Shown here: piece by piece, positions 10,730 through 12,186 of the stretch | Layout of the letters: every line of letters starts with the position of its first letter | Numbering within the stretch: the stretch's first letter is position 1 | From: a virus | DNA length: 26,899 nt | Virus record (IMG/VR): IMGVR_UViG_3300042521_000466 | Span: 1 to 26,899 of that record | Strand: one strand, 5' to 3' | The notes under the pieces: model-generated | Told to the model about the DNA's origin: nothing | What the model saw: the letters and a program-made list of their open reading frames with translations, nothing else | Databases searched by the model: none | Translations under genes and position numbers: made by a program

Positions 10730-10878
10730 TACCAGTTGCTCCTCTTGCTGTGAGACATACGATCCCATTCGCGCTGAAGATGTTCAAGATGTACACGGTC
10801 CGTAGCCTGACTTAGATAGTTATACATTCGGTCTTGTTCACTGCGACGAGAGAACAGTTTCTTTAAGTATGCGACCAT
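10729..10878 (-). CDS. DUF3563-like 49-residue protein
   Basis: A short ORF coupled to the end of hsp20 through a TAATG overlap. It has a basic amphipathic N-terminus (AYLKKLFSRR) followed by SEQDRMYNYLSQATDRVHLE and a second helix HLQREWDR. The pattern (short aromatic-basic start, then YL..A.D...LE....E.D) matches the small DUF3563 proteins common in Proteobacteria, whose function is unknown. The ribosome-binding site is weak, which suggests translation depends on ribosomes finishing hsp20. Confidence 0.7.
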   Translation of the reverse strand: MVAYLKKLFSRRSEQDRMYNYLSQATDRVHLEHLQREWDRMSHSKRSNW

Positions 10879-11378
10879 TACTTGTCGCCGTACTTTTCGG
10901 ATAGAAACTGCTTCGTTGCTTCGCCATTATGAGTGTCTGGTGTTTCGCCGATGTTGATCTTCTTTGGCTTCTTTTCTTCTGGAATAAAACGCTCAAGCCA
11001 AATCTTTAGCATACCATTGATGAGGTCTGCATTCTTGATTTCGACAGTATCGGCCAAAGTGAACTGACGAGTAAAGGCACGTTCGGCAATACCCTTGTAA
11101 AGATATTCACTGTCATCTGCTGTGATGTTGCCCTTTACAGTAAGAGTGCCGTCTTGCAATTCAAGTTCAAGGTCTTGCTTGCCAAAACCAGCAACGGCCA
11201 TCTCAATCACATACTTGTTCTCATCAATCTTCTTGATGTTGTATGGAGGATAAGTTGGAATCTTAGACATAGATTCTGCAAGTTCATTGAACTTTTTTAG
11301 CATGGGTTCAAAGCCTACAGTGGTGTTGAATTGCTTGGGAAAAGTAGAAAAGGAAAATGGATCTAGGGACTTGTTCAT
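10878..11378 (-). CDS. Small heat-shock protein Hsp20
   Basis: A 166-residue alpha-crystallin domain protein. The domain runs from about 45 to 140: YPPYNIKKIDENKYVIEMAVAGFGKQDL, a beta strand TLTVKG, the sHSP sequence YLYKGIAERAFTRQFTLAD, and NGMLKIWLER, which carries the conserved G.L motif near the domain end. The IPEEKKPKKINIG tail provides an I-x-I-type contact. It would hold unfolding proteins, possibly during capsid or tail assembly; hsp20 is a known T4-like cyanophage gene. The ATG at 11378 has AGGAG upstream inside a predicted hairpin. Confidence 0.95.
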   Translation of the reverse strand: MNKSLDPFSFSTFPKQFNTTVGFEPMLKKFNELAESMSKIPTYPPYNIKKIDENKYVIEMAVAGFGKQDLELELQDGTLTVKGNITADDSEYLYKGIAERAFTRQFTLADTVEIKNADLINGMLKIWLERFIPEEKKPKKINIGETPDTHNGEATKQFLSEKYGDK

Positions 11379-11457
11379 GTTTAACTCCTATTAAGCAAGT
11401 TGTTTTTTAACATCTCTTTCCATTAGGCAAAGAGAATGTGGGACTCTCATCCCACAT
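11379..11457 (-). promoter_or_regulatory. hsp20 leader resembling a ROSE RNA thermometer
   Basis: The roughly 79-base leader can fold into three hairpins. SL1 pairs ATGTGGGA with TCCCACAT (11457-11450 and 11443-11436). SL2 pairs TCTCTTT with AAAGAGA. SL3 (11401-11383) pairs AACUUGCU with AGGAGUU around a UAAU loop and leaves one G of UUGCU unpaired. SL3 covers the ribosome-binding site. A U(U/C)GCU strand with an odd G facing AGGAG is the hallmark of ROSE elements, which control small heat-shock genes in Proteobacteria. Confidence 0.55.
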
Positions 11458-11462
11458 CAGTA

Positions 11463-11491
11463 TATATAATACTTCTCAGTTAAAATGTCAA
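11463..11491 (-). promoter_or_regulatory. Sigma-70-type promoter of hsp20
   Basis: On the minus strand TTGACA (11491-11486), 17 bases, TATATA (11468-11463). The dUTPase stop TGA lies inside the -35 hexamer. Transcription would start near 11457, at the foot of the first leader hairpin. Confidence 0.75.
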
Positions 11492-12186
11492 GAGGCTATG
11501 ACATTTATTTTTGGTTTATTTGGCGCACCCTTTGGTCTTCCGCGACCTCTCTTAATCTCTTCTTTTGTGTCTTCAGATAGAACTTCCAATTTCGGAGAAA
11601 ATGTAGAAATTGGCGCTGTAGGAATAGTCGCAGGAATAACTGTCGGTGTCGAACCATATGTTATGACACTATCTTGCGATACGCCAGTAGAACCCATTCC
11701 ACCAATTCGATCTGACTTTCTGAGAGGTCTTGCCAAAGATTCCCAAATAACATATTCTTCTAACTTAGTCAATTCGCCTTGAGCGATTCTATCGCCATCA
11801 TTGATCATGTACTTGTTGTCTGATGCATTGAACATTAGCAAATAGAGTTCATCGGTGTAATCTGAGTCAATAATGCCTTCGCCGTTGATGAGAATAAGAC
11901 CTTGCTTCAGCGATGTGCCTGATCGAGGATGAACACGAACAGAATAGCCAGCAGGAATATCTAGAATGTATCCAGTCGGTACCATAATGCGATCACCAGG
12001 ATTAATGCAAATCTGAGTGCCGTTGTTATGAAACTGTCTGGTAAATTCTTTGTTCTGTGCGTTATAGCCTTTGTACTGATACTTGCCAGCAAACTGTGCC
12101 GCAACATCAAAACAGGCAGACTGCTTTGTTGAGAACTTCGGCAGTAAAACTTTTGGATGCGTCTTAAAAAATCCTAATCTATTCAT
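11488..12186 (-). CDS. dut: dUTPase with C-terminal AT-hook-like tail
   Basis: A 232-residue protein. The five trimeric-dUTPase motifs appear in order: ACFDVAA (24-30), HPRSGTSL (86-93), GEGIIDSDYTDE (102-113), GDRIAQ (131-136) and RIGGMGSTG (160-168). It hydrolyses dUTP to dUMP and keeps uracil out of phage DNA. Typical enzymes end at motif 5; here about 64 residues follow, ending in KRGRGRPKGAPNKPK (212-226), a basic GRP motif like an AT-hook. The ATG at 12186 has GGAG six bases upstream, so it is preferred over the TAATG-coupled ATG at 12204. The first 15 bases of the start region are identical to those of gp45. Confidence 0.9.
   Translation of the reverse strand: MNRLGFFKTHPKVLLPKFSTKQSACFDVAAQFAGKYQYKGYNAQNKEFTRQFHNNGTQICINPGDRIMVPTGYILDIPAGYSVRVHPRSGTSLKQGLILINGEGIIDSDYTDELYLLMFNASDNKYMINDGDRIAQGELTKLEEYVIWESLARPLRKSDRIGGMGSTGVSQDSVITYGSTPTVIPATIPTAPISTFSPKLEVLSEDTKEEIKRGRGRPKGAPNKPKINVIAS

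Follow-up and report, generated by a model that had tools for sequence, protein, structure and literature searches.

A candidate ROSE-like translational switch in the hsp20 leaders of marine and freshwater phages

The hsp20 locus and its leader

The 26,899-nucleotide stretch analyzed here (the window; IMG/VR record IMGVR_UViG_3300042521_000466, positions 1 to 26,899) is part of a T4-like phage genome and encodes the clamp loader gp44, the sliding clamp gp45, a CobS-like ATPase, a dUTPase and PstS. Its hsp20 gene is preceded by a leader that very probably acts as a short two-hairpin translational switch of the ROSE-like type. The features of the locus, from the promoter to the gene, are as follows.

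11486..11491, minus strand: TTGACA, -35 hexamer of a sigma70-type promoter, read directly from the sequence
11463..11468, minus strand: TATATA, -10 hexamer, separated from TTGACA by a spacer of 17 and lying within TATATATA
11436..11457, minus strand: stem-loop 1 (SL1), a hairpin of 9 base pairs where the transcript is predicted to begin; it is not conserved
11413..11435, minus strand: stem-loop 2 (SL2), UCUCUUU-G-CC-UAAU-GG-AAAGAGA, in which the unpaired G11428 is invariant
11383..11401, minus strand: stem-loop 3 (SL3), AACUU-G-CU-UAAU-AG-GAGUU, the putative thermosensing hairpin
11385..11389, minus strand: Shine-Dalgarno (SD) sequence AGGAG, paired within SL3 and six bases 5' of the AUG at 11378
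10878..11378, minus strand: hsp20, encoding a 166-amino-acid small heat-shock protein (PF00011, E = 7.9e-18; PHROG 432, E = 6.5e-37), with its AUG start codon at 11378

The predicted minimum-energy fold of the leader (11457-11376, minus strand) contains SL1, SL2 and SL3 and has a free energy of -26.5 kcal/mol, compared to -16.05 +/- 3.12 kcal/mol for shuffled sequences (z = -3.35). In SL3, AACUU pairs with GAGUU and CU pairs with AG. The ROSE motif UUGCU falls at 11398-11394, and its unpaired G11396 faces the SD sequence. An isolated SL3 has predicted energies of -5.9 kcal/mol at 10 °C, -3.7 kcal/mol at 25 °C and -1.9 kcal/mol at 37 °C. When the bulged G is removed, the energy at 25 °C becomes -7.7 kcal/mol and the hairpin is computed as locked. 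An earlier note on this DNA had proposed that a hairpin with an unpaired G in UUGCU hides the SD sequence of a phage hsp20 gene, and both the fold and the comparison described below confirm this proposal.

The -10 hexamer lies within a stretch that is also similar to the T4 late box TATAAATA, and transcription is predicted to start at approximately 11458-11456. This promoter is kept in most relatives, with TTGACA (at most two mismatches) located 15-19 nucleotides before TATAWATA in 53 of the 62 that are not identical. It is missing from the output of a consensus promoter scan because TATATA, with T at position 6, breaks the rule used by the scan.

Conservation and covariation among relatives

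Eighty IMG/VR loci were chosen by the similarity of their Hsp20 proteins from among the matches listed, and 79 of these have readable upstream DNA (protein identity 56-100%). A (C/U)(U/C)GC..GGAG arrangement of anti-SD arm and SD sequence is kept at the start codon in all 79. Where enough upstream DNA is available, the relatives have the second hairpin with its unpaired G before a CC..GG tip, and only a few have altered loops. SL1 is missing or exchanged for other structures. Thus, the three hairpins claimed in the earlier note all occur in the fold of the window, but the element itself consists of two. The SL2 and SL3 pair is also found at the hsp20 genes of nine annotated phages (S-PM2, S-CAM1, P-SSM4, S-CRM01, HTVC008M, Mosig, HTVC115P, Melnitz and C48C1), one of which, HTVC115P, is a pelagiphage outside the T4 group. 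The host groups of phages that carry the element are cyanobacteria, SAR11 and Methylophilales.

Base pairing in the two hairpins covaries. An alignment of 36 leaders gives a covariation score of 0.51; shuffled controls give 0.17, and slid pairings reach no more than 0.13. A wider alignment of 61 leaders, which adds cyanophages, pelagiphages and SAR11 and was fitted to a covariance model, gives 0.53, versus 0.16 shuffled and at most 0.11 slid. The sequence of the SL2 stem is nearly free to change among relatives while its pairing is retained; in the wider alignment both sides vary in seven of its eight pairs, and 96.6% of cells are paired. Variants of the SL3 stem (AACUU/GAGUU, ACUC/GAGU and ACCUU/GAGGU) likewise preserve pairing. 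The SL3 signal in the 61-leader set rests mainly on two outer pairs that are unformed in many rows, and the inner pairs are silent because they are nearly invariant. All 61 rows have (U/C)GCU after U or C, paired with AGGAG, and the unpaired G of SL3 is invariant in both alignments. It is this comparison, rather than folding energy, that settles the question of constraint and indicates that the leader structure is under selection.

The same comparison bears on a quite different proposal, that the conservation reflects a DNA element, such as a Pho box read by host PhoB. The sequence ATTCAAACTCGCTTAAATA located 5' of S-PM2 hsp20 has been given as a putative Pho box (PMC10976474). It corresponds exactly to the anti-SD arm of SL3, which is conserved as base pairs and not as DNA sequence, and the same study reports neither PhoB binding in gel shifts nor differential expression for S-PM2 hsp20. 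Because the published gel shifts contradict it, we reject this reading, to which we give almost no credence. If the leader is a thermometer, then this would explain why the S-PM2 stretch is conserved.

Alternatively, the hairpins could act, independently of temperature, as an operator to which an RNA-binding protein of the phage or the host binds, for example a T4-type RegA. The regA gene is directly 5' of hsp20 in S-CAM1, S-PM2 and S-CRM01, and the GCC-NNNN-GG tip of SL2 is strongly conserved. However, the same leader occurs where regA is not adjacent (P-SSM4 and Melnitz) and among bacterial genes on SAR11 chromosomes, and its motif fits a ROSE anti-SD arm and not a loop operator. We consider an operator very improbable.

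A covariance model (R1) was built on the 36 leaders. It has a single match in the window (11437-11376, 70.2 bits), and 28 of its 29 matches in held-out phage loci, picked by protein only, fall at the hsp20 AUG. It also recognizes hsp20 leaders on SAR11 chromosomes and, more rarely, the leaders of two other phage genes. A search of 15 phage records, nine of which are full deposited genome records, returned one hsp20 match apiece and one weak extra match where SL2 stands alone.

Other structures accompany the element in some relatives. A GGAUAA.GUAUUGCGUACC hairpin takes the place of SL1 in many of them (L003, L006, L015, L021, L024 and L038-L047) and has no Rfam match in the relatives scanned. 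A tRNA-like GCGGGGUAGUUUAAUGAAAAUG...CCCCGCUCC structure, which neither ARAGORN nor Rfam calls, lies between the promoter and SL2, about 70-150 bases before hsp20, in L007, L011-L013, L022, L023 and L027. One group of viral contigs shares a conserved TAAAGCTGGnACAACG...GTAACCAG-like stretch 5' of SL2 (L198, L202, L215, L222, L232, L242, L246 and L265). In pelagiphage relatives L174-L181, which have AACUGUCU..AGGAGGUU, the unpaired G has apparently moved by one or two arm positions.

Relationship to ROSE elements and proposed mechanism

ROSE-like thermometers are defined by a U(U/C)GCU sequence set against the SD sequence, a bulged G, two to four hairpins and a downstream small heat-shock gene (PMC3669281, PMC11182007). 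The hsp20 leader has the arm, the bulged G, the hairpin number and the gene. The ROSE-like arrangement proposed in the earlier note is therefore present, including a hairpin upstream of the anti-SD arm, and it is conserved among relatives.

The closest known counterparts are the short two-hairpin elements of Pseudomonas ibpA, which have the same motif and are proven thermometers (PMC3669281). Like these elements and the corresponding Rfam family ROSE_3 (RF02523), the phage leader has two hairpins, a U(U/C)GCU arm paired to the SD sequence with a bulged G, an unpaired AUG and a small heat-shock gene; in its first hairpin, as in the ROSE_3 consensus, an unpaired G precedes CC..GG. It differs in its phage or SAR11 origin, its A+T-rich composition, a shorter and weaker SL3, an SL2 tip that varies (UAAU, GAAA or UUCG), and a phage-type promoter instead of a sigma32 promoter. 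The E. coli ibpA ROSE element (RF01832, ROSE_2) also sets UCGCU against AGGAG with a bulged G before an IbpA-type gene, but it folds into more hairpins and is structured differently upstream. ROSE-G (PMC12857270) resembles the phage element in its anti-SD arm with a bulged G; it has CUGCU and opposed bulged Gs, whereas the phage element has U(U/C)GCU and a single one. Thermometers of cyanobacterial hsp17 and of Anabaena small heat-shock genes (PMC4477652, PMC4166951) control the same class of gene, and one of those in Anabaena is built on a ROSE-like sequence. Synechocystis hsp17 has one hairpin that holds the start codon, in contrast to the two-hairpin cyanophage type.

The covariance scan that the earlier note had named as a check gives a divided answer. 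ROSE_3 matches the window leader from end to end at 15.8 bits with the SD sequence and AUG in register, and this is the match with the best E value there. It appeared only in a narrow scan; a whole-window Rfam scan found no ROSE element. Neither ROSE (RF00435) nor ROSE_2 has a match up to E = 10 within 11340-11500. Among phages of the same family of leaders, ROSE_3 scores Melnitz at 34.1 bits (E = 6.5e-4) and C48C1 at 26.8 bits (E = 0.047). A fourU thermometer was also considered and rejected, since the arm is CUUGCU and the fourU model has no match even at E values up to 10. Separately, record OQ572409 ("Pseudomonas phage Y7", unverified; L152 431-497) has a canonical ROSE_3 element before hsp20 that scores 69.2 bits and may be host sequence.

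Several results count against a ROSE-like thermometer. The window score of 15.8 bits is well under the ROSE_3 gathering score of 43. R1 fails to recognize the E. coli and Y7 ROSE elements, and on the E. coli ibpA leader with filters off it finds no full-length match and a best fragment of 3.9 bits. R1 also misses loci L175-L181, which have a GUCU arm variant that is a sign of motif drift. In a nearest-neighbor model, opening of GGAG in the full window leader rises from only 6.4% at 25 °C to 7.1% at 42 °C. A buried SD sequence is also predicted for several unrelated genes in the window.

On ROSE_2, its own model, the proven E. coli ibpA ROSE element reaches 100, but on ROSE_3 only 20.8; therefore, a score under the gathering threshold bars filing the leader under RF02523 and does not bar a ROSE-like function. 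Judged by its motif the phage leader is ROSE-like, yet it forms a widespread branch of its own. The weak predicted opening arises because ACUUG can pair with CAAGU in codons 2-4, and this alternative helix, predicted in the window, is not kept in relatives that have other first codons. Since unrelated genes can also have buried SD sequences, energy alone does not discriminate, and ViennaRNA opening curves were dropped as evidence for a thermometer for this reason.

The flat predicted opening and the buried SD sequences of other window genes are what would be expected if SL3 were a constitutive damper of hsp20 translation with no useful temperature response in the range of the phage. A damper would require neither an invariant bulged G nor a UYGCU arm shared by phages of three host groups (cyanobacteria, SAR11 and Methylophilales), nor would it need so fixed a link to a stress gene. 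It is a decidedly unlikely explanation.

If the leader is a thermometer, then phage or host polymerase would start from the adjoining promoter and make an mRNA with about 80 leader bases. SL2 would serve as a stable spacer that isolates SL3 and aids its folding. The CUUGCU arm of SL3 would pair with the SD sequence, and the unpaired G and a U.G pair would keep this helix weak. In the cold, SL3 would block the 30S subunit; with warming, it would open gradually, and the Hsp20 that is made could protect host and phage proteins during infection. We infer the melting range, the effect on translation and the benefit to the phage. In Pseudomonas ibpA the first hairpin remains folded and the second melts (PMC3669281), a pattern that by analogy fits the stable SL2 of the phage leader, and a ROSE-like thermometer works less well once its bulged G is deleted (PMC11342760). 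The modeled energies make graded melting of SL3 most likely, and the earlier suggestion that the chaperone is made only at raised temperature appears too strong.

Phage RNA thermometers have been described for lambda cIII, for SPbeta blyA (fourU) and for a sigma70 gene of Caudoviricetes (fourU) (PMC4166951, PMC10586365, PMC11182007). The claim that no phage example had been described holds only in a narrower form: in the openly licensed literature, we found no phage thermometer that is ROSE-like and none on a phage hsp20 gene. Like the known cases, the hsp20 leader is a phage-encoded structure at a ribosome-binding site, with temperature gating that is presumed here. It differs from them in that none is ROSE-like or precedes a chaperone gene. 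Lambda cIII, which has two alternative long folds, shuts on warming; the SPbeta blyA and sigma70 fourU elements are isolated cases and do not make up a family that spans phage genera. If the hsp20 leader functions as proposed, translation of a chaperone gene is under the control of a temperature sensor in many abundant phages that infect cyanobacteria, SAR11 and methylotrophs. It would place lytic marine phages among the few with known RNA thermometers, constitute an unannotated RNA family for Rfam, bear on the role of hsp20, which is common in marine T4-like phages, and allow a direct test of the effect of warming water on phage infection.

Other genes, SAR11 chromosomes and origin

Searches of IMG/VR with the leader only return mostly hsp20 loci. 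Among the matches listed, hsp20 lies downstream in 61 of 65 for one loop type and in 68 of 80 for another, and four further matches are truncated hsp20 starts. The two-hairpin leader also occurs on at least seven contigs before an open reading frame (ORF) of 68-76 amino acids to which Pfam and PHROG assign no function. A phasin identity for this ORF was set aside, as the resemblance is by eye only and unsupported by Pfam. One further contig has tandem copies of the element. The positions of these leaders are given below.

L110 4687-4744: before the 68-76-amino-acid ORF
L210 1214-1272: before the same ORF
L211 9505-9563: before the same ORF
L232 4091-4147: before the same ORF
L246 9254-9310: before the same ORF
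L266 2067-2131: before the same ORF
L265: also before the same ORF
L203 90-145: first tandem copy, before rubredoxin (PF00301, E = 1.1e-5)
L203 252-314: second tandem copy, before hsp20

These additional genes matter for the strongest competing explanation, in which the leader is chiefly a binding site for Hsp20. Free Hsp20 oligomers would repress their own translation, and client aggregates would titrate Hsp20 away. The trigger would then be aggregation of proteins in the infected cell, temperature being one cause among several, and such control may operate alongside melting. In E. coli, IbpA binds the 5' untranslated region of its own mRNA and thereby represses translation, for which it needs Y34, R93, R97 and K98 (PMC10474464). 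Phage Hsp20 proteins keep the equivalents of the first three (for Y34, Y in 85 of 90 sequences and F in the remaining 5; for R93, R in 89; for R97, R in 83), and the conservation of SL2 exceeds what a spacer alone would require. However, the K98 equivalent is Q in 36 of 90, and because these residues are also important for the fold of Hsp20, finding them conserved does not point specifically to self-repression. Self-repression also cannot directly apply where the leader precedes the small ORF or rubredoxin, and the RNA is therefore argued to work alone as well. We regard a leader that is chiefly an Hsp20 binding site as unlikely, though less so than the other alternatives.

The same element is present, unannotated, before chromosomal hsp20 genes of SAR11 bacteria.

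L400 2945-3004: SAR11 chromosomal hsp20 leader
L401 1677-1734: SAR11 chromosomal hsp20 leader
L402 2877-2935: SAR11 chromosomal hsp20 leader

Four SAR11 genomes were examined, each with one hsp20. In two of the four, hsp20 is flanked by glutathione-synthesis and oligopeptidase genes (named by eye from translations), and there the gene with its leader is clearly chromosomal. We found no earlier account of a switch in the SAR11 hsp20 leader in the openly licensed literature. To judge from these sequences, the switch is conserved before the hsp20 genes of phages from the sea and from fresh water and of SAR11 bacteria. The Hsp20 proteins of these SAR11 genomes cluster with those of pelagiphages HTVC008M and Mosig (support 99/98), and another Pelagibacteraceae genome has a different Hsp20. 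The gene and the thermometer seem to have been transferred jointly between phage and host, in either direction. A more speculative possibility, which we advance only tentatively, is that hsp20 and its thermometer form a mobile cassette that is swapped between phages and SAR11 and reused before the 68-76-amino-acid ORF and rubredoxin. It would give a lytic phage a small temperature regulon and, combined with self-binding by Hsp20, could sense both heat and protein aggregation.

Records labeled Nonlabens (L379), Rhodobacteraceae Water_Bin34 (L311 and L312) and a Neomarinimicrobiota metagenome-assembled genome (L324) were discounted as bacterial cases, since they probably represent phage contigs with hsp20. 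Water_Bin34 (L311/L312) has four model matches, which lie on separate contigs. At L419 1496-1545, a lone SL2 (GCTTCGCCTAATGGGAAGC) without the anti-SD arm precedes a phage gene with a possible signal peptide.
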